A stretch of 26,932 nt of DNA from a virus, in the IMG/VR virus record IMGVR_UViG_3300030118_002628, positions 1-26,932 of that record; one strand, given 5' to 3'. Positions 12,158-23,123 of the stretch are shown in pieces; the first letter of the stretch is position 1, and every line of letters starts with the position of its first letter. A program made the position numbers and the translations under genes. The notes beneath the pieces are model-generated. The model was not told the DNA's origin and ran no database searches. It worked only from the letters and a program-made list of their open reading frames with translations.

Positions 12158-13726
12158 TTACTTACGTTTCTTTTTAGACATTAAACCACCTTTTACAAAA
12201 GATATTGGAGCAGTTGCTTTTACACCTTCTGTATATTCTTTAATTTTTTTTGTCTCTTCATCATATTTCTTAGAATCAATATTTAACCTCTTCATATCTC
12301 TTTTTTTAGCTTTCTTTTTTTTGGAAACTTCCTTTACTACATTTGAAACAACATTTTTAGCTTTATCTAAGGCTTGGATTTCAAAACTTCGAGCAGGAGT
12401 GTACCCGCCTTCTCCAGCTAATGCTTGATTATATATTGTTTTTTGCTCGTCAGTTAAGTTCTTATTATTTTTTAGTGAATTATCTATGCTTTCTAAAATC
12501 TTCTTGTGTTGTTGAGCTAACGCAAGAGAAGCTATATTACCTACTATTGGTATTTTAGTGAAAGCATCATCAACACCTATATTAAATTTAGTGTATCCTT
12601 TTAATTGTTTCAAGTATTCATCTATCTCATTTGTTGTAAAATCTCTTCTCCCACCCCCCTTGTCTTCATCAAAGAGTTGCATATTATACCCTAAACTCTC
12701 ATAATATTTTCGTAACTTAGCTACTTGTTTAGCGTCAGATGGATCAATGGGTTTTTTTAATATGTCGCTGGTTATAGGGTCATCATCTTTATCAAACAAA
12801 GAACTCTTCTTTTTTCGTTTAACCTTAGTTTCTGGTGCATCTTCCTCTGTAACTTCCTCTTCTACTTCTGGCTCATAAGGAACAAAGTTAGCTATAGAGG
12901 ATTCTGAATGAGAGACGGGTTTGTCATCCAAAAAGAACACATCAATAATAGAGGACTCATTTATCCCATCCCAATACTTTATAGTACCTTCTCTTTTCTC
13001 TGAGGATTCTACATCACCTCCCTCGTCAAAAGACTGCATAGACTCATCTTTAGGCTCATCCATAGCAACCTCTTCAGTCTGTAATTCTTCGATTGGAAAA
13101 GGTAGGACATTAGACTCTGCTTGTGGTGTATCATCAGTTTCTCCACCTATTCTTCCAGTTGCTTCCATTCTGGCGAGACCCATTTTTGCTTGTGCTCTAA
13201 GGTCTTCAAAAAACTTTAAGCCATAAAATCTTAAAACATCTGCAGGAACAACATACTCGCCCTCACTAAGCATAGCTGGAATATCATCACGGACTTCTTC
13301 TGCTAATGATCCGCTAGGTATTTCATTTCCACTTACAGGGTCTTTATCCAAACCATCATCTATAAATGCCATTTCCATCTGCTCATCCATAACTTGTCCT
13401 CCTTTGTTTTTTGTTAAAGGAGTATTAGTTGCTCCTCCTTCTTTGCTTCTTTTCTTTGCTGCCTCTACAGCAGTCTTAACAGAGTTGTATCTTTTAAACA
13501 TTTTGCCTGTTCTCTCTTCATATTTTTTTGCTTCTTTTTCTGCCCTTTCTCTTGAGAAAAAACTTGGCTCTTTTGTTTTCTCATTGAACCAAATCAATGG
13601 ATAATTTATAAACTTATTAGAGTCATCAAATGCAGGTTCAGACACAGTCACTTCAGTAGCATATTCTTGTCCCATTAATTGAATAGGCTTGTGTTTTTTA
13701 AGATTAAAAGGTTCAAACTCACCCAA
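12158..13726 (-). CDS. Virion-associated accessory protein with KGG-type C-terminus
   Basis: A 522-residue protein starting with TTG at 13726, with GAGGT 8 nt upstream; the first in-frame ATG (13675) has no ribosome-binding site. The N-terminal part includes SFFSRERAEKEAKKYEERTG. The middle has DDGLDKDPVSGNEIPSGSLA, then EEVRDDIPAMLSEGEYVVPA and DVLRFYGLKFFEDLRAQAKM, a block I know from many marine phage proteins of unknown role. It continues as an acidic disordered region and a Lys-rich end, SFVKGGLMSKKKRK. It lies between portal and scaffold, overlaps the preceding gene by 8 nt, and so is probably a virion or ejected protein. The biochemical function is unknown. Confidence 0.75.
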   Translation of the reverse strand: MGEFEPFNLKKHKPIQLMGQEYATEVTVSEPAFDDSNKFINYPLIWFNEKTKEPSFFSRERAEKEAKKYEERTGKMFKRYNSVKTAVEAAKKRSKEGGATNTPLTKNKGGQVMDEQMEMAFIDDGLDKDPVSGNEIPSGSLAEEVRDDIPAMLSEGEYVVPADVLRFYGLKFFEDLRAQAKMGLARMEATGRIGGETDDTPQAESNVLPFPIEELQTEEVAMDEPKDESMQSFDEGGDVESSEKREGTIKYWDGINESSIIDVFFLDDKPVSHSESSIANFVPYEPEVEEEVTEEDAPETKVKRKKKSSLFDKDDDPITSDILKKPIDPSDAKQVAKLRKYYESLGYNMQLFDEDKGGGRRDFTTNEIDEYLKQLKGYTKFNIGVDDAFTKIPIVGNIASLALAQQHKKILESIDNSLKNNKNLTDEQKTIYNQALAGEGGYTPARSFEIQALDKAKNVVSNVVKEVSKKKKAKKRDMKRLNIDSKKYDEETKKIKEYTEGVKATAPISFVKGGLMSKKKRK

Positions 13727-16012: not shown

Positions 16013-17581
16013 TTAATATCCAAAGTTAGGGTCTGCTGCTTTAAATCCACCAGTGCTCATTATTGGATTATAATCAAACAGACTGCTTCTAGGTCTTGAC
16101 ATGATGCCATATCTTAAAGCATCATACAAGTGGTCTTCTGCGTTAGTGTTTATATCCTCTGGATTTCTCTTATCCAAAGGTAATGCTGGTAATTGAGAAA
16201 TAATATTAGTGCAGTTATTAAAAAATACTAGTCTAGGCTCATTTGTAAACTCATCAACTTGCAAACGTCTGTGTATTTCATTTTTACCAGATATTCTAGA
16301 TCCTCTACTTCTGTCTGAGGGTCTCCATCTACACCCACGTTGGATCATTTGCTCTGCCAAAGAAGGTCCAGTGTCTCCTCTTTTATGCCACAGACTACTG
16401 TCTAATACACCATAAGCTATCGTTCCATCATCCTTTTCTGCTTCTAATATCATGTCCGCTAAATCTGTAGCTAATACTTTTTGAGTGTAAAGCTCTCTAT
16501 ATACTACAAGTTGTTCATTAGGATTAACTGCAAACCAAACAACACCACTGTAACTACCATAACCATAGTCACAAGCTCTAAATCTCTTCCAGGTTTTAGG
16601 GATATTATAAGGTTGTACAACATGTATTTCTCTATTCCATTCTGTAAAAGCTGCTCCTTCAGCTACATCCCAATCTCCTTCTAATAATTGTCTTCTTTGT
16701 TGTTCAGGCAAAGAAAGTAAATTCATTTCATACTCACCTGATTCTACCAAATATGGGTTGTCAAACAATTTAGCAGGTATAAATCTTCTTTTGAATAAAG
16801 GAGTACCTTCTTTCGAATGACCTTTAGGATATGACAAAACCTTTCCTGTTTCTATGTCTGTAGCGTAAAATGCAGTATTTTCTGGAGCAGGATCTATAAA
16901 CATTTTTTTTACCCACTGATGTCCACTTCCTCCAGGGTTAGTAGTTGCCCTCATGTAAATAGGTAAATCTTTTGCAGCGGTACGCAATCTACTTCTAAGA
17001 TAATTCCAAGCAAAAGGAGTAGACCATTGTGTTAACTCATCAAATCCAATCCAGTTAAATGCTAAACCTTGATATCGTAAGACATCCTCATCTCTATCTA
17101 AATATGAAAACCAAAGTCTTCCTCCTTGAGGACTAACCCATTGCATTTTTCTCTCTGACCATTTAATACCAGGTATTGCTTTTGTATATAATTCTTGTGA
17201 CTTCCAAACTAGTTCTCTTAACTCTTCCGTAGTATGTCTAATTAATAATCCAGAAAATTGAGGGTGAGTTATATATCGTAGAGGGTCGGCTAACATAGCA
17301 AAAGATTTTCCTCCACCTGCACTACCCCCATAGAGAACCTCTCTTTCGGATGAAGCTAGAAATTGGGTTTGAGGACCTTTATTAGGCTCAAATATTACTT
17401 CTCTACCATTATAAGGAAGAGGTTCATCTACTAAATTTTTATTCTGTGTTGGTACAGTCTTCGATTTTGTCGTGAGCTCCGAGTCTGCCTTTTTCGAGCC
17501 TTTCGACTGTCTTGAGTGCTTTTTCGTATCTCTTAACCCATTGACGTTTAATTTTAGCTGTTCCTTTACGCTTTTTTTCAT
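16013..17581 (-). CDS. terL: Terminase large subunit (packaging ATPase/nuclease)
   Basis: A 522-residue protein with all key motors. The adenine-binding segment is GPQTQFLAS (about 69-77), Walker A is GGSAGGGKS (85-93), Walker B is FNWIGFDE (175-182) and the coupling motif is ATTNPGG (212-218). The nuclease acidic residues lie in RACDYGYG (D338), GVLDSS (D394) and EDHLYDALRYG (D483, D487). It cuts and translocates concatemeric DNA into the prohead. The conserved part begins near residue 59. The first 47 residues are basic, low in complexity, and overlap the preceding gene by 143 nt. No ATG, GTG or TTG exists in frame after 17581 until within the ATPase fold, so either this weakly placed ATG is used or the protein is made by frameshifting. 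Confidence 0.92.
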   Translation of the reverse strand: MKKSVKEQLKLNVNGLRDTKKHSRQSKGSKKADSELTTKSKTVPTQNKNLVDEPLPYNGREVIFEPNKGPQTQFLASSEREVLYGGSAGGGKSFAMLADPLRYITHPQFSGLLIRHTTEELRELVWKSQELYTKAIPGIKWSERKMQWVSPQGGRLWFSYLDRDEDVLRYQGLAFNWIGFDELTQWSTPFAWNYLRSRLRTAAKDLPIYMRATTNPGGSGHQWVKKMFIDPAPENTAFYATDIETGKVLSYPKGHSKEGTPLFKRRFIPAKLFDNPYLVESGEYEMNLLSLPEQQRRQLLEGDWDVAEGAAFTEWNREIHVVQPYNIPKTWKRFRACDYGYGSYSGVVWFAVNPNEQLVVYRELYTQKVLATDLADMILEAEKDDGTIAYGVLDSSLWHKRGDTGPSLAEQMIQRGCRWRPSDRSRGSRISGKNEIHRRLQVDEFTNEPRLVFFNNCTNIISQLPALPLDKRNPEDINTNAEDHLYDALRYGIMSRPRSSLFDYNPIMSTGGFKAADPNFGY

Positions 17582-17867: not shown

Positions 17868-18107
17868 CTATTTTCTCTTTGGCTGTCTTTTTCTGTTAAA
17901 TTTTTTACTAACGACTCTTATATTTTTAGGTCTATTATCTAATGGATTCATATTAATATGATCTATTTCTTTTTTATCTCCTTTACGAACAATGCCTTTT
18001 TTCAGTAATTTATTTCGAGCTGAATTTCTAGCAGCTCTACGTTTTTTCTGAACTGGCAAAGCTCCATGAGTATCATATTCTCTGCGATAATTCCTAGTTT
18101 TTCTCAT
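17868..18107 (-). CDS. HNH-type endonuclease domain protein
   Basis: A 79-residue, very basic protein. The C-terminal half KKEIDHINMNPLDNRPKNIR carries the HNH signature (Asp-His at DHINMNPLDN, then Asn, and NIRVVSKKFNRKR). The N-terminal half is an Arg/Lys-rich DNA-binding tail (KKRRAARNSARNKLLKKGIV). It lies between TerS and the HTH protein, directly abutting the TerS gene stop. HNH proteins next to terminase genes often assist in DNA cleavage during packaging. Free-standing homing endonuclease is the alternative. It lacks extra domains, and activity is not proved by sequence. Confidence 0.75.
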   Translation of the reverse strand: MRKTRNYRREYDTHGALPVQKKRRAARNSARNKLLKKGIVRKGDKKEIDHINMNPLDNRPKNIRVVSKKFNRKRQPKRK

Positions 18108-18479
18108 TTAACTTTTTTCATCACTATTCTTAGGAGGTAAAATAAATACACCATTAGGTAGATTTACCTCCATTTTTTCAGTTTTACTATATCCAGTTCT
18201 ATCTAATAAATCTTTTGCTGCTGTCATTTTATCTCTAATGCCTAATTCGGTTGGATCATTTAAAGCATTAGCCATAGAATAAGCAGCACGGGGAGCTACT
18301 CTAGCTAGATAGTCTCTAGTAGCCTCAGATATCTCCTCTTTCATATGACGAATTATATCAGAAGTTTTAGTGCTATCTGCATATCCTGCTAACTTTTTAG
18401 CTAGAACAACGTCCCCATTTGCTTCATCAAAAAGAACTTCTAGTAGCTTTTGTTGTTTTTCAGTTAATTGTTTACTCAT
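18108..18479 (-). CDS. terS: Terminase small subunit (probable)
   Basis: A 123-residue protein. LTEKQQKLLEVLFDEANGDV and VLAKKLAGYADSTKTSDIIR form the terminase-small HTH pattern in which a Tyr-Ala-turn precedes the recognition helix. ATRDYLARVAPRAAYSMANA and GIRDKMTAAKDLLDRTGY follow, the usual helical oligomerisation part. The tail MEVNLPNGVFILPPK resembles TerS C-termini. It would recognise the packaging start and present DNA to TerL. The position four genes ahead of the portal and within the packaging module agrees. Confidence 0.8.
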   Translation of the reverse strand: MSKQLTEKQQKLLEVLFDEANGDVVLAKKLAGYADSTKTSDIIRHMKEEISEATRDYLARVAPRAAYSMANALNDPTELGIRDKMTAAKDLLDRTGYSKTEKMEVNLPNGVFILPPKNSDEKS

Positions 18480-18481
18480 CT

Positions 18482-18733
18482 TTATCTGTACCTAGCTGTT
18501 TTTTTAGCAATTCTTTTAGGTTGTTTAGAGAACTGTTTACCTTGTTGTTTAGCTTTTCGTTTAGCTCTAGAAGTAGCTGCATACTCAGCAGCGGATAAAC
18601 TTTTAATAGCTGCAGTTGGAAGATAACGTTCTCCCGTAGCTTTTTTACCTTGCGTAGAAGGTTTTCCACTTTTAGTTCTCCATTTTTGTTTTGTCCAGTC
18701 TTTTAAAGACTTTTGTGACTTTTTTAGTGCCAT
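18482..18733 (-). CDS. Very basic small protein, DUF5872-like
   Basis: An 83-residue protein with roughly a third Lys/Arg. It reads ALKKSQKSLKDWTKQKWRTK, SGKPSTQGKKATGERYLPTA, AIKSLSAAEYAATSRAKRK and ends QPKRIAKKTARYR. The KSLKDWTKQKWRTKSGKPS motif with GERYLP is familiar from small proteins of unknown role in marine phages and some giant viruses (DUF5872-type, from memory). It starts with a TAATG junction from the gene upstream, indicating coupled translation. A DNA-binding or packaged internal role is suggested by charge alone. Confidence 0.75.
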   Translation of the reverse strand: MALKKSQKSLKDWTKQKWRTKSGKPSTQGKKATGERYLPTAAIKSLSAAEYAATSRAKRKAKQQGKQFSKQPKRIAKKTARYR

Positions 18734-19143
18734 TATCTTCTTTTCATCCTAGTAGAACCTTTTTTAGTCATTCCACCATATCTCATTTTAGTTGCACCTT
18801 TTTTGGTCATACCACCTCGTTGCATTCTAGTAGCCCCCTTCTTGGTCATACCACCCCTTTGCATTCTAGTAGCTCCCTTCTTAGTCATACCACCACGTTG
18901 CATTTTGGTTGCACCTTTCTTAGTCATGCCTCCTCTTTGCATCTTAGTAGCACCTTTCTTAGTCATACCACCTCTTCTCATTTTGGTAGCTCCTTTCTTA
19001 GTCATGCCACCTCCTCTCATTTTGGTAGCTCCTTTTTTAGTCATCCCGCCTTTTGCCATTTTACCTTTACCATCAACTGTAAAAGCAGGGACCATTTTAC
19101 CTGTTTTTTTATCTTTTACCATTGGCATCTTGTGTTTAGTCAT
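18733..19143 (-). CDS. Eleven-residue-repeat KGGMTKKGATK protein
   Basis: A 136-residue protein. The chosen ATG (19143) has TAAAGGAG about 7 nt upstream; the longer frame reaching 19398 is a shadow over the upstream gene. After a short lead (MTKHKMPMVKDKKTGKMVPA, FTVDGKGKMAKGG) the whole remainder is eight tandem copies of GGMTKKGATKM plus R/Q-R, the last being GSTRMKRR. The repeats differ largely by synonymous changes, so protein sequence is under selection. The protein is extremely basic, glycine-rich and probably disordered. Related KGGM motifs occur in other genes here. Function unknown. Confidence 0.78.
   Translation of the reverse strand: MTKHKMPMVKDKKTGKMVPAFTVDGKGKMAKGGMTKKGATKMRGGGMTKKGATKMRRGGMTKKGATKMQRGGMTKKGATKMQRGGMTKKGATRMQRGGMTKKGATRMQRGGMTKKGATKMRYGGMTKKGSTRMKRR
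18740..19048 (-). repeat. Eight 33-bp coding tandem repeats
   Basis: Each 33-bp unit encodes GGMTKKGATKM and two basic or Gln residues. The eight copies are contiguous and in frame, with no indels breaking the frame. Variation falls mainly at third codon positions and at the two variable residues after the Met. Confidence 0.85.
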
Positions 19144-19144
19144 C

Positions 19145-19837
19145 TTAGTCTCCTTTATTATCTTCGTTAGCATACATATTGTTGAATGTTTCCTCTGGGT
19201 CAAGATAACTTTCGTGTATCTCAGCTGCATGAAGAAACTGACTGGGTTTAAAATCTGGTGCACCTTGACCAGTTTCCCATAAAGCAGGACTTGTAGCCCT
19301 AACTCTATTATTTGGTAGGGCAACAATATTACCCTTCCATTCTCCTGAAAGTAATTGCAATACATGACTTTGCTTATGTTGAGCTGCATCATCAGCAATA
19401 TGACTTTCTGTATAATCTACTGTAAACATATACTGAGCAGTAAACCACTCTCCATCTATTTTACATTGCCAAGGACTGGAACTTACTCTTTCCATCTTTA
19501 CTATGGCATGATTATGGGAACTACAATCCCAAGGTTGTGCTAGATAAGTTTCCATTTTCTCTGGGAAATCTTCAAATGACTCATATGTATCATCTGCAAC
19601 TAATGCAGTAATAGGCATTCTTGCCCACATAGCACCCCCATGAACATTATCAGTGTCATAAAACTCACTTTCATTTCCTGTAAATACAACTTGAAAACTT
19701 AAACATCTATCTGGTATTGTATTAACAGCTATGGCATTTGCATGGAGATATTCTCCATGATACTCTTCATGATTATTTGTAAATTCTTTTCTTACCCAAC
19801 ATTTAAAGTAGGGTATATCGCTAATTAAATACGGCAT
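19145..19837 (-). CDS. Conserved-looking globular protein, function unknown
   Basis: A 230-residue protein unlike its basic neighbours, with aromatic-rich globular composition. The opening PYLISDIPYFKCWVRKEFTN and the later GGAMWARMPITALVADDTYE, TYLAQPWDCSSHNHAIVKME and SSPWQCKIDGEWFTAQYMFT are segments I associate with a protein widely present in marine phages, always without known role. Near the C-terminus GEWKGNIVALPNNRVRATSP and ALWETGQGAPDFKPSQFLHA follow. No membrane segment. The start overlaps the preceding stop by 1 nt (TAATG). It could be a virion or host-modifying protein. Confidence 0.75.
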   Translation of the reverse strand: MPYLISDIPYFKCWVRKEFTNNHEEYHGEYLHANAIAVNTIPDRCLSFQVVFTGNESEFYDTDNVHGGAMWARMPITALVADDTYESFEDFPEKMETYLAQPWDCSSHNHAIVKMERVSSSPWQCKIDGEWFTAQYMFTVDYTESHIADDAAQHKQSHVLQLLSGEWKGNIVALPNNRVRATSPALWETGQGAPDFKPSQFLHAAEIHESYLDPEETFNNMYANEDNKGD

Positions 19838-20136
19838 TATGATTTCTTCCTTTCGTTTTCTCTTTTAAGTTGTAATTTTGCTTGTTTGGCTAGTCGGGCA
19901 ACCTCCATTTTGCCCATAACTTTAGCTCTTTGTTCTAAAACAGTTAGTATTTGTATTTTTCTTGCATAAGGTTTTCTTATTCTTTTTACTTTTGCTATAG
20001 TGTCTTTCGTATCCTTAACTGTAGCAAACTTAATACTGACTGTATCTTTTGGATTTTCATCCGTATACAGCCTTCTACCACTTCCTTTAGGTTTTTTACC
20101 TGTACCTACTTTTGGATCTGGTTTTTTTCTTGCCAT
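19837..20136 (-). CDS. Basic small protein (KKPKGSGRRLYTDENPKDTV family)
   Basis: A 99-residue basic protein. A Lys/Gly/Pro-rich lead (RKKPDPKVGTGKKPKGSGRR) is followed by LYTDENPKDTVSIKFATVKD and RKPYARKIQILTVLEQRAKV, ending in a Lys/Arg-rich helix. The GSGRRLYTDENPKDTV and KPYARKIQILT segments recur in marine phage and some eukaryotic-virus small proteins, as I recall. The role is not known. It is coupled to the next gene by TAATG. Confidence 0.75.
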   Translation of the reverse strand: MARKKPDPKVGTGKKPKGSGRRLYTDENPKDTVSIKFATVKDTKDTIAKVKRIRKPYARKIQILTVLEQRAKVMGKMEVARLAKQAKLQLKRENERKKS

Positions 20137-20158
20137 GTCTTAGCTGCCTTTAAACATA

Positions 20159-20446
20159 TTAATTTCTGTAGCCTCCGCCTTTTGCTTTGTATTCTCTGGC
20201 TAACATTTGTGCTTTTCTTGCTGACCATTGACCAGCACCTCCACCTTTTGTACCCGCTTTAATTTTATTAAATAAATTCTTACGCATTGTGGGTTTTGTA
20301 TAATTACCTGCTTTATTAACTGTGCTACCTCCTTTATTTAATTTTATAGCAGAAAGTTTTTTTGCTTGACTAGCATGGGCTTTACTTGCTTTTTTTAGTT
20401 TAGAAACTACAGTTTTAATAGCTTTTTTTGCTTGTTTTTTCTTCAT
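20159..20446 (-). CDS. Basic small protein with GGGAGQWSARKAQ motif
   Basis: A 95-residue protein with an N-terminal Lys/Ala helix (KKAIKTVVSKLKKASKAHAS), an NKGGSTVNKAGNYTKPTMRK segment, and a C-terminal GTKGGGAGQWSARKAQMLAR with EYKAKGGGYRN. The GQWSARKAQ-EY-K-GGGY end is a recurrent module in phage and giant virus small basic proteins. Highly basic with no acidic clusters, consistent with nucleic-acid binding or packaging with the genome. It begins at a TAATG junction. Role unknown. Confidence 0.75.
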   Translation of the reverse strand: MKKKQAKKAIKTVVSKLKKASKAHASQAKKLSAIKLNKGGSTVNKAGNYTKPTMRKNLFNKIKAGTKGGGAGQWSARKAQMLAREYKAKGGGYRN

Positions 20447-20718
20447 TATGATGCCACCTTTATAACTACACTCGCTATTATTATAACGACAATAGCTACA
20501 ATCGCTATATTTGTTGTCGTAAATTTAGATTTATTTTTACTGAAATCTAAAGGTTCTTTGAGTTTTTGTTCATATGCTTCATTAACATTAGGAGTTGCAG
20601 GATTATCTGCTTTAAAATGTCCTTTAGTGTTTCTAGCCCTTTTTAATTTTTTAGTAGTCGTAGCTTTTTTAGCTGTTACTTTAGTTTTGTTTTTAACTTT
20701 ATTTTTTTTATTTACCAT
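20446..20718 (-). CDS. Basic small protein with C-terminal membrane segment
   Basis: A 90-residue protein. The N-terminal third is Lys/Thr-rich (NKKNKVKNKTKVTAKKATTT), followed by RARNTKGHFKADNPATPNVN, then a polar stretch. The C-terminal membrane helix (NIAIVAIVVIIIASVVIKV) lies at about residues 69-87, a tail-anchored layout with the basic part likely in the cytoplasm. It is embedded in the run of basic small genes. Function unknown; possible roles are membrane tethering of DNA or a lysis accessory. Confidence 0.75.
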   Translation of the reverse strand: MVNKKNKVKNKTKVTAKKATTTKKLKRARNTKGHFKADNPATPNVNEAYEQKLKEPLDFSKNKSKFTTTNIAIVAIVVIIIASVVIKVAS

Positions 20719-20722
20719 AATA

Positions 20723-21022
20723 TCACCATTTCACTTTATGTGCCCAATATCTAGCTGAAAATTTATCAGGATTTTTATCTTGTGCATCATGCCTTGCATA
20801 ATAACTTTTTCTTCTAGCTTTATCTTTAGCTGTTTTTGGATTTTTCCCAGCCCCTCTAACGCCTTGTTGCCCAAATCGTATTACTTTTAGTTCGTGGGTT
20901 TTAGATTTTTCAGCTACAACAATATGAGATTTTGTTTTGTGACTAGGAGTTCTTTTGGCTTGATTCGTTTTTGATAAGCCATATTTTTTAAGTAGAGCTT
21001 TTTTACGATCTGAGTGTGGCAT
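20723..21022 (-). CDS. Basic small protein ending in ARYWAHKVKW
   Basis: A 99-residue basic protein, opening PHSDRKKALLKKYGLSKTNQ. Its core is ELKVIRFGQQGVRGAGKNPK followed by ARRKSYYARHDAQDKNPDKF and the end SARYWAHKVKW. The RFGQQGV and the SYYARHDAQ / SARYW-HKVKW blocks are recognisable from marine phage and giant-virus small proteins of unknown function. AGGA lies 7 nt upstream of the ATG. The 55-bp gap ahead of it is the widest within the basic-gene run and is AT-rich without a clear promoter. Confidence 0.75.
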   Translation of the reverse strand: MPHSDRKKALLKKYGLSKTNQAKRTPSHKTKSHIVVAEKSKTHELKVIRFGQQGVRGAGKNPKTAKDKARRKSYYARHDAQDKNPDKFSARYWAHKVKW

Positions 21023-21441: not shown

Positions 21442-21645
21442 TTAGTAAGAATCTTCCAAAACACAATCAAGCTGCATTGTATAGAATAAATTATTCTCAT
21501 GTCTTTTCCAATTATCTTCATTAATAAGTTTTTGACACTCCTCAAACGTAAAATACTCTTTCATAACATACTGATTACCTGTATATTCCCACTGAGTTCC
21601 ATTATAACCCCAAACACTAATTAATAACAAATAAATCTTCATCAT
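21442..21645 (-). CDS. Small exported or membrane-anchored protein next to endolysin
   Basis: A 67-residue protein with a short hydrophobic N-terminus (MMKIYLLLISVWGYNG) that looks like a signal or anchor, then a polar, aromatic, Cys-containing domain (YVMKEYFTFEECQKLINEDN, FYTMQLDCVLEDSY; two Cys). It overlaps the endolysin stop by 4 nt (ATGA), so is co-translated with it. A spanin-like or periplasmic lysis accessory is possible, but no lipobox or long coiled coil is present to support this. Confidence 0.7.
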   Translation of the reverse strand: MMKIYLLLISVWGYNGTQWEYTGNQYVMKEYFTFEECQKLINEDNWKRHENNLFYTMQLDCVLEDSY

Positions 21646-22094
21646 GACAATTCAAAATGAGGACCATCAATAAAAGGTCGTCTTCCTTGACTGCGTCTTA
21701 AATCAATATATTGATTCATAACCTCTTCCATACTGTGATTCGTATCAGCTATATTGTTAACATGCCAAGCTGCTCCCCAACGTACACTTACATTCTCTAC
21801 TTTTGCAGCTTCTTTCATGGCATCCGCTATGTCATCATATAAATTTAACTCCCATGAAGCTCTTCCTGCTACATATGCCATTAAATCAACAGCTAACCCA
21901 TCAATATGCTTTGATTTTAGTGTTTGAGAAGCTCCTTTTTCAACTAGAGCCTTCTGTTCAGCCATAGTTCTTAAACCGCAGATCACTCCAAAATCTACTT
22001 TTGTCTCTTTTATGGCTCTTTTTACAACTTTTACAAGTTTATTGTTAACACCTTTTAATCTATCTTGGCTTTTTGTTGATAATTTAAATGTCAT
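21642..22094 (-). CDS. Endolysin, peptidase M15-like (D-Ala-D-Ala / L-Ala-D-Glu peptidase)
   Basis: A 150-residue protein with the M15 zinc-peptidase motifs: SKHIDGLAVD (residues 61-70, zinc-binding His63 and Asp70) and GPHFEL near the C-terminus (third ligand His146, with Glu148 nearby). The GVICGLRTMAEQKALVEKGA stretch (about 36-55) is the usual lead into the fold, and the length is typical for a single-domain phage lysin. It would cut the peptide part of peptidoglycan and is released by the holin encoded upstream. It overlaps both neighbours by 4 nt. No signal peptide, so it depends on the holin. Confidence 0.88.
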   Translation of the reverse strand: MTFKLSTKSQDRLKGVNNKLVKVVKRAIKETKVDFGVICGLRTMAEQKALVEKGASQTLKSKHIDGLAVDLMAYVAGRASWELNLYDDIADAMKEAAKVENVSVRWGAAWHVNNIADTNHSMEEVMNQYIDLRRSQGRRPFIDGPHFELS

Positions 22095-22262: not shown

Positions 22263-22568
22263 CTATGATTTGGATGTTAACGTCACAAATCGTCCTCTTC
22301 TGCCTTGATTTTCTCTTCTTTGTCCTCTAAATGTCATTCCACCTCCATAAAACATACCTGTTTTACGATAATCCTTCATCATACCACCTTTATTCATTGA
22401 TAATCCAGTTGTTGGATTAATTTTTTTCTTGTTACCCATCATCATACCCCCTATATTTGCCTTTTTTGTAGCATTTTTTGTTTTTTTAGAAGGTTTTTCC
22501 ATTATTCCTACAGCAATTACAATTTCTGCTGCTGCTTTTTTTGACTTAGAATCGGATTTATGTTTCAT
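22263..22568 (-). CDS. KGGM-motif basic protein
   Basis: A 101-residue protein. The preferred ATG (22568, MKHKSDSKSKKAAAE) has AAGGAG about 10 nt upstream; an alternative start 11 codons earlier (22601) gives 112. It is rich in Lys, Gly, Met and Arg, with GGMMMGNKKKINPTTGLSMN, KGGMMKDYRKTGMFYGGGMT and a final GQRRENQGRRGRF. The NKGGMMK motif parallels the repeat protein at 18733-19143 and the C-terminus of the 522-residue protein at 12158. Its 5' end overlaps the preceding zinc-ribbon gene by 11 nt. Function unknown. Confidence 0.72.
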   Translation of the reverse strand: MKHKSDSKSKKAAAEIVIAVGIMEKPSKKTKNATKKANIGGMMMGNKKKINPTTGLSMNKGGMMKDYRKTGMFYGGGMTFRGQRRENQGRRGRFVTLTSKS

Positions 22569-22725
22569 CTTTTTTTTTCTCCTTGTTCGGTAAGTATACA
22601 TCTACATGACAATCACATTTTGGACAACTTAAATTTGTTAATTGACAATAATAATCACTTTCTTTCTCGTTTATCTCTCTAGTGCCACCCCAAATAAGTT
22701 CTGTTTTACAATGCCAACATCTCAC
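22558..22725 (-). CDS. 55-residue zinc-ribbon protein with GTG start
   Basis: The frame starts with GTG 22725 overlapping the holin stop as GTGA, a normal coupling junction. The protein has CWHC (residues 3-6), Cys27, and CPKCDC (34-39), a zinc-ribbon arrangement, and a Lys-rich C-terminus (YLPNKEKKKDET). Together with the 54-residue gene at 22091 it gives two tiny zinc-ribbon genes within the lysis cluster. Function unknown; a nucleic-acid-binding or structural zinc knuckle is the likely type. Confidence 0.7.
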   Translation of the reverse strand: MRCWHCKTELIWGGTREINEKESDYYCQLTNLSCPKCDCHVDVYLPNKEKKKDET

Positions 22726-23123
22726 TTAGTTAAACCTTTCTGCTTTTCATAAGTCCTTAAACCACCAATCCCAAGTAATCCGCCTAATACAGGTAAAAGT
22801 GTAGAGATATCAAACTCTGGAAGTTCAGGTATTTCTGCACCACTAATCGCAACAATAAATATAATTGAAGGTTGAAGGATGTAATGGTAAAAAAAAACCA
22901 ACGCACACGTCCAACCAACTGCGGGCCGCCAACCGCCCTTAAATAAACTACCTGATTGTGCTTCAGCTTTATTAATTTCTAATTGTGCTAACAAAGCCTG
23001 TTGAGCATGGGTATCAGACATTGTTGCTATTTCGTGTGCGAGTTTTGCTTTTTGATCTTTGTCCTCAATAACTTTATCAAGAATACCCGTTACTGGGCCT
23101 ATTAGTTGTCCTATAATACTCAT
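22722..23123 (-). CDS. Holin, 3TM (GTA-holin-like)
   Basis: A 133-residue protein. The N-terminal half is amphipathic and helical (LAHEIATMSDTHAQQALLAQ), followed by the conserved-looking GGWRPAVGW (about 63-71). Two clear hydrophobic segments follow (CALVFFYHYILQPSIIFIVA and STLLPVLGGLLGIGG), then LRTYEKQKGLTK. The GWRP motif and the LLG(I/L)GGLRT-EK ending match the 3TM holins of gene transfer agents (PF11351 type, from memory). It would form membrane lesions that release the endolysin encoded below. Its ATG overlaps the stop of the upstream gene (ATGA). Confidence 0.85.
   Translation of the reverse strand: MSIIGQLIGPVTGILDKVIEDKDQKAKLAHEIATMSDTHAQQALLAQLEINKAEAQSGSLFKGGWRPAVGWTCALVFFYHYILQPSIIFIVAISGAEIPELPEFDISTLLPVLGGLLGIGGLRTYEKQKGLTK

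Follow-up and report, generated by a model that had tools for sequence, protein, structure and literature searches.

In the virus record IMGVR_UViG_3300030118_002628 (26,932 bases, hereafter the window, meaning the whole stretch of DNA that was analyzed), seven consecutive genes, all on the minus strand, occupy positions 18482 to 21022, and we refer to them by coordinate as A, R, P, X, B, T, and G. Three of these genes, A, B, and G, form one conserved unit. We tentatively favor the reading, at a rough probability of 45%, that they make up a single unit of late genes for small accessory proteins associated with the head, which are probably packaged along with the DNA, because the three families keep together and because A and G are found spliced onto head-building or head-module proteins. 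Of 1,766 records matching the window terminase, the best 14 comprise 13 from HMO-2011 and the CRP roseophages, at 62-78% identity and with HMO-2011 entered twice, and one uncultured record at 66%. The window gene order matches that of HMO-2011; this identity and gene order show the window to be part of a marine podophage genome of the HMO-2011 type. The three members of the unit are as follows.

A: 18482..18733, minus strand; 83 amino acids (aa), net charge +27.7 per 100 residues, PHROG 14910; core member of the B-A-G unit.
B: 20159..20446, minus strand; 95 aa, +27.4 per 100 residues; conserved core, at about residues 41-94, corresponding to PHROG 17747.
G: 20723..21022, minus strand; 99 aa, +21.2 per 100 residues, PHROG 7595; relative of DUF5754 (Tlr6F).

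The linkage of the three genes is co-directional. Iterated profiles were applied to viral loci seeded with B (the best 80 of at least 599 stretches from a viral contig scan with B), and A was present in 77 of these loci and G in 52. Of the 77 loci with both, 76 have B upstream of A and co-directional with it, the gap between them being at most 50 base pairs in 34 of the 76 and 1,414 base pairs at the maximum; G is on the strand of B in all 52 of its loci (36 upstream, 16 downstream). An earlier single-pass search covering 87 sources (the window plus L001-L086, of which L001 overlaps the window) retrieved A in 83, G in 55, P in 22, X in 20, T in 10, and R in 3; the large terminase family (TerL) of the window was found in 27 of these sources, many loci being too short to show it. 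In the annotated phage collection, A was found in 17 records, B in 16, and G in 42, with B located 5' of A on the same strand, by coordinates, in all 16 records with both (HMO-2011 counted twice). The pelagiphage transcriptomes of PMC12753301 come from HTVC022P and HTVC027P, two phages that appear in neither the A nor the B records. The link is real but looser when seen from G, since the 80 loci seeded with divergent G, with flanks of up to 4 kilobases (kb), yielded A in 22 and B in 19. Portal homologues were found in 30 of the 80 B-seeded loci; their identities span 21-61%, with 13 below 25%, and the B-A-G unit thus accompanies very different portals. A search of the open-licence literature by family names found no paper in which A, B, and G are described together. 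On a 399-kb SAR11 contig (L315:3302-4413), G, B, and A are, judged from the sequences, the last phage-like genes before host-like genes on the opposite strand, as at the end of a putative prophage.

The profiles of A, B, and G also retrieved fusions of the unit's members to one another. A and B are fused, in the order B+A, in L143, L183, and L186, and A and G are fused in L188 and L189 (two contigs with the same coordinates). In L119, L128, L197, and L215, G is joined to A-like and B-like stretches; the A-like part rests on DUF5872 in L119 and L197 and on PHROG 23735 in L128 and L215 (E 0.008 and 0.0015). The B-like part comes from a reading of the sequence, apart from one weak profile hit (L197) and some PHROG matches without a connection to B. 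The A+B protein of L143 (L143:3-1130, on a 164.6-kb virus contig) carries a DnaJ domain as well (E 2.3e-9).

Fusions to head proteins were found for both A and G. In three related contigs (L081/L267, which are one contig, L268, and L269), A forms the N-terminal part of a protein whose gene directly precedes that for the scaffold. This protein is 415 aa long in L081/L267, 1,151 aa in L268, and at least 840 aa in L269, where it is cut by the contig end and holds part of A only. The portal gene lies upstream of the A-bearing gene in L081/L267 and L268, the scaffold and then the major capsid protein genes lie downstream of it in all three, and the major capsid proteins are 57-60% identical to that of the window. 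The A-bearing proteins match the product of window gene 12158-13726 at 44-56% identity over 59-91 residues; for L268 the match covers a 91-aa region at 44% identity, and the two genes have the same genomic position. P and B are encoded between the portal and the A-bearing gene in L081 and L268, with P just before B. The 1,151-aa protein of L268 also contains a methyltransferase domain and, by a reading of its sequence, an HExxH motif. For G, Aphanizomenon phage CL131 gp012 places a G domain between Phage_portal_3 (60-419) and InPase (631-752), followed by Phage_Mu_F at 991-1103. Vibrio phage ICP1 gp125, annotated as a capsid protease, has Peptidase_S78_2 followed by a G domain, and Aeromonas phage 2L372X_100 has the reverse order, the G domain preceding Peptidase_S78_2. 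The 'Peptidase_S78_2' label of GR11A_110 was dropped, this protein being a lone G domain of 118 aa without a Pfam match. B was found at 68% identity within a 1,022-aa uncultured phage protein labelled ParB/Sulfiredoxin.

By profile comparison, G is a stand-alone relative of the DUF5754 (Tlr6F) domain. Window G matches PF19058 (DUF5754) at 11 bits (E 0.46), under the gathering cut-off of 27.4 bits. The fused protein L188:4759-6105 passes that cut-off at 54.6 bits over residues 375-420, and a non-iterated G profile matches residues 354-448 of it at E 2.7e-15 (database size set to 1000), so the wider family of window G contains a member above the PF19058 cut-off. Among 22 G members searched with an E limit of 1, 11 match DUF5754 (best 3.7e-4), 7 match DUF6321 (best 0.0033), and 6 match Phage_tail_tube_init (best 4.1e-4). 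A Foldseek search with the G model (mean pLDDT 83) returned unnamed and phage proteins first, with an XkdF protein in 13th place and with Tunisvirus and CeV-01B proteins at E ~0.02. Assignments of G as Lipid_DES or as DUF6321 were set aside, these being weak single-protein Pfam hits below the cut-offs. The candidate link of A and B to the second family, DUF5872 (PF19197, cut-off 27.5 bits), rests on sub-threshold matches that span the B-A boundary of fused relatives: positions 2-105 of the L143 protein (E 3.4e-4, 18.4 bits) and 6-85 of the Rubrobacter B-A protein L354 (E 6.5e-4, 20.7 bits). DUF5872 passes its own cut-off in L119 and L197, both of which also contain G, while window A and B gave no match to PF19197 at E <= 1. 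An earlier note on this DNA, made from the sequence alone, had likened motifs of the block to those of some small proteins of giant viruses. For G this holds by relation, through L188, Foldseek, and the papers discussed below, although window G itself falls under the Pfam cut-off; for A and B it rests on the sub-threshold DUF5872 matches.

In the mechanism that we propose for a head-associated unit, A, B, and G would be made, probably late, from an operon that also carries the terminase. Their conserved aromatic and glycine cores would dock onto head-assembly proteins, the candidate partner being the protein encoded beside scaffold for A and the portal-MuF chain or the prohead protease for G. 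Their Lys/Arg surfaces would then contact DNA, which would place the proteins inside the head, from where they may exit with the DNA.

The A and B families are also encoded by bacteria. An alignment of B was scanned against the genome_contigs collection (one genome per species, 84,980 prokaryote species), and among the best 80 of 428 stretches, A occurs in 76 and G in 16, and 34 encode A and B within a single open reading frame (ORF). All 34 fused-ORF records are titled as bacteria, from Bacteroidota, Acidobacteria, Myxococcus, Rubrobacter, Verrucomicrobia, SAR11, and others; the order is B-A in 25 and A-B in 9, all nine of which are SAR11, and G was found within 4 kb of the fused gene in none of the 34. 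In the phages, B and A are encoded separately, as the two parts of a protein that is a single chain in many bacteria. The net charge of the fused proteins, calculated from mechanical ORF starts, ranges from -1.1 to +24.6 per 100 residues, with 14 of the 34 below +10 and two slightly negative, and several begin with a tail in which Lys, Arg, Ala, Pro, Ser, and Thr are abundant. The SAR11 A-B protein is 58% identical to window A and 68% identical to a 50-residue part of window B. In SAR11 genome L362 (L362:10685-16853), its gene lies beside genes for TspO, SDRs, and DUF3833, cyclopropane-synthase-like, DUF1365, and amine-oxidase-like proteins; the neighbor corresponding to TspO is conserved in 7 of the 9 SAR11 loci. 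B was matched in 12 of 99 genomes drawn from the family of L362, in 11 cases within open frames of 139-149 aa. A literature search gave no support for the idea that this is a singlet-oxygen cluster, and we do not claim it. In a midpoint-rooted tree of 174 B+A pairs, 24 of the 25 non-SAR11 fused proteins fall in one clade (support 1.0), and the SAR11 clade (0.99) is placed among pelagiphage and other split sequences, with supports of 0.49-0.89 neighboring the SAR11 clade; this placement suggests that SAR11 captured the A-B pair from a phage.

Several of these results, and some others, weigh against the reading of A, B, and G as head-associated proteins. The link to the head is weaker for A, with three contigs of which two hold the whole A domain, and for B, with one database protein, and prohead proteases need not remain in the virion. 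G occurs in 42 annotated records compared with 17 for A, and thus often without A and B, and the annotated neighbors of G in HTVC008M include no head genes. In the open-licence literature we found no proteomic study of virions for any phage that has A, B, or G as free proteins, and no solved structure convincingly resembles G or B. Searches by sequence gave one weak hit per profile (E 0.07 for A, 0.54 for B, and 1.3 for G), and searches by fold gave none of 569 aligned chains at Z >=2 for G and, for B, 3 of 27 rows at Z 2.4-3.0, which we treated as noise; the B model, which has two helices at 50-64 and 76-88, is weak (pTM 0.43). Since A+B occurs in bacterial chromosomes outside phage contexts, a role in the head would not be the sole role of the pair, and with 14 of the 34 bacterial fused proteins only weakly basic, strong basicity is not what the A+B family conserves. 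These findings lend themselves to an alternative that is possible, if doubtful: that the phages carry, in A and B, copies of a cellular stress protein or nucleic-acid-associated protein, which protect or organize DNA or alter host physiology in the infected cell outside the virion, with G travelling along. The 34 bacterial one-ORF proteins, their Lys/Arg-rich tails, and the SAR11 neighborhood, together with the open frames of 139-149 aa in that SAR11 family, are what such a protein would lead one to expect. It accounts poorly, however, for the company of terminase, portal, and scaffold genes and for the fusion of A to the pre-scaffold protein; the placement of the SAR11 clade points to capture from phage, and no DNA-binding family was matched. 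We consider it unlikely that A, B, and G are instead assembly factors, such as scaffold helpers or portal or terminase co-factors, which would act at the procapsid stage and be missing from mature virions. The joining of G to prohead proteases and of A to a product encoded next to scaffold would suit such factors, as would the position of A immediately upstream of the terminase small subunit gene in the window, but G is also found within a portal-MuF chain, and the portal is a lasting component of the virion.

Charge bears on the remaining alternative, that the AT-rich genome produced this series of Lys-rich genes by chance and that they share no function. The earlier note had described small, strongly basic genes here, and these are real: six proteins carry +17.8 to +30.9 net charges per 100 residues, and the gene at 19145, singled out in that note as non-basic, is indeed acidic. 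Its count of five basic genes in six was wrong, the figure by net charge being six of seven, and the positions that it gave as starts are the left ends, and thus the stop ends, of minus-strand genes. Under a first-order Markov null built from all of the minus-strand coding stretch (3000 peptides, each at most 95 residues long; mean +7.1, standard deviation 5.0, 95th percentile +14.7), all six basic proteins lie above the 95th percentile and are more basic than the genome's base composition predicts. Under a second null, built from the block's own coding strand (mean +14.7, 95% point +23.2), only A, R, and B do. At a cut of +15, picked after the data were seen, 6 of the 7 block genes are basic compared with 9 of 34 listed genes (hypergeometric P = 4e-4); basic genes outside the block include the HNH gene at 17868 (+29.1), 22263 (+23.2), and 22091 (+20.4). 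That only three of six genes exceed the second null, and that R, X, and T are poorly conserved, is what a chance run would give, but the conserved order and strand of B, A, and G and their fusions are not, and we regard chance as very improbable for the block as a whole; with the linkage and the composition nulls it was rejected for A, B, and G, while it is still possible for R, X, and T. The earlier note had also proposed that these proteins could be packaged and nucleoid-like, or ejected. Packaging or ejection has become likelier through the fusions to head proteins, although proteomic support was not found in the open-licence literature. The simple nucleoid-protein reading of the block is weak: the weakly basic cellular relatives count against plain charge neutralization, no block protein matched a DNA-binding Pfam family, A, B, and G gave no Pfam or NCBIfam match to HU, H-NS, or similar proteins, and T has a hydrophobic C-terminal segment. 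It is the cellular fused proteins, with their varying charge, that speak most strongly against it and leave room for an intracellular role.

The other genes of the block and its surroundings are as follows.

R: 18733..19143, minus strand; 136 aa, eight 13-residue repeats of the GGMTKKGATKM type, +30.9 per 100 residues; passenger.
P: 19145..19837, minus strand; 230 aa, acidic (-9.1 per 100 residues), PHROG 3704; passenger between B and A.
X: 19837..20136, minus strand; 99 aa, +21.2 per 100 residues.
T: 20446..20718, minus strand; 90 aa, +17.8 per 100 residues; Lys-rich N-terminus and C-terminal hydrophobic segment.
Terminase small subunit (TerS): 18108..18479, minus strand; PHROG 2538; directly downstream of A.
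TerL: 16013-17581; packaging gene.
M15-type endolysin: 21642-22094; lysis gene.
Holin: 22722-23123; lysis gene.
522-aa protein: 12158..13726, minus strand; between the portal and scaffold genes.

As the earlier note had stated, the block lies between the packaging module (TerS and TerL) and the lysis module (endolysin and holin); in Lentibacter phage ICBM2, G is near the end of the late arm and adjoins lysis genes. The TAATG junctions reported to link the genes are present at 18733, 19837, and 20446, three of the six internal junctions, and absent from the others. A small and very basic HNH endonuclease gene (17868-18107) lies directly downstream of TerS. A short Gly-Gly motif, often preceded by Lys/Glu and followed by Met/Leu, recurs in several window proteins (18733-19143, 12158-13726, 22263-22601, and 20159-20446) and in the A-bearing L268 protein (L268:1766-5221).

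R, P, X, and T are passengers, the basic ones (R, X, and T) being poorly conserved. R starts at the ATG ending at 19143, the longer mechanical ORF not being the gene. Comparisons among its repeat units (28 pairs, not independent) gave 135 silent and 54 residue-changing codon differences, with 148 of 229 base differences at third positions, and from this excess the protein repeat seems to be kept. Neither R nor T had a match in the phage collection at E 0.01, and the C-terminal segment of T is, by a reading of its sequence, a probable membrane anchor. X gave no Pfam match above the cut-off and no PHROG match; nine records have it, namely HTVC033P and large genomes of cyanophages or pelagiphages. 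P matches 108 records, including cyanophages and pelagiphages; of the 30 listed, 23 bear a PurM or ferredoxin label, but the window protein lacks a Pfam match, and these labels look unsupported. Weak Pfam hits below the cut-offs (R as Lysostaphin_N, X as PCuAC or DUF6293_C, and T as RIFIN) were set aside.

The finding of Tlr6F relatives in a portal-MuF chain and in prohead proteases, linked to two further small families, makes the function of the Tlr6F family testable, and such a test is feasible in cultured phages, for example ICP1 or the roseophages. The analysis also presents one protein that is whole in bacteria and split in phages, with a phage pair that was likely captured by SAR11. A broader and rather speculative extension, to which we give little credence at present, is that B, A, and G constitute a portable head-docking toolkit of small domains that bring proteins into the assembling capsid. 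If so, marine phages would use the toolkit as free proteins, other phages would have it joined to portal-MuF proteins and prohead proteases, polinton-like and giant viruses would share it as DUF5872 and Tlr6F, and bacteria including SAR11 would carry A and B in fused form for a separate function.

Among the closest known systems are three families already present in PHROGs: window A, B, and G match PHROG 14910 (2.7e-36), 17747 (9.6e-35), and 7595 (2.3e-26), respectively, which PHROGs keeps as separate families of unknown function. HMO-2011 carries homologues in the same arrangement as the window, with B, A, and G corresponding by position to gp63, gp59, and gp69. It differs in having gp60-gp62 between B and A, where gp61 is annotated as a methanesulfonate monooxygenase and where the window has X, P, and R; the B-A interval thus accepts varying genes. 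For phages of this type, the relevant section of PMC9038755 mentions ten core genes, several without known function. Polyvalent proteins with InPase domains, some of them fused to portals, are predicted to be packaged in the virion, according to the part of PMC5512222 that deals with them. The portal-InPase-MuF chain of CL131 gp012, with its G domain, is of that style, and B sits in a long ParB/Sulfiredoxin protein; window A, B, and G, however, are separate small genes without an enzymatic domain, each a single small domain, whereas a polyvalent chain has at least two effector or enzymatic domains. DUF5872 may resemble A and B through the weak matches across the B-A boundary of their fused relatives and differs from them in leaving window A and B unmatched; in the algal virus CpV-BQ1, both DUF5754 and DUF5872 proteins are listed in a portion of PMC12085832. 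Tlr6F, equated with DUF5754 in a passage of PMC12220804 that reports it in polinton-like viruses, nucleocytoplasmic large DNA viruses, and phages, is described in a section of PMC4642659 as conserved across almost all polinton-like viruses, many giant viruses, several virophages, and some phages, and as lacking any detectable resemblance to domains of known structure or function. G is likewise a small protein, and its profile matches L188, whose G region passes PF19058. The difference is that the family is given no function in those parts of the two papers, whereas its relative in the window is tied to A, to B, and to head proteins.

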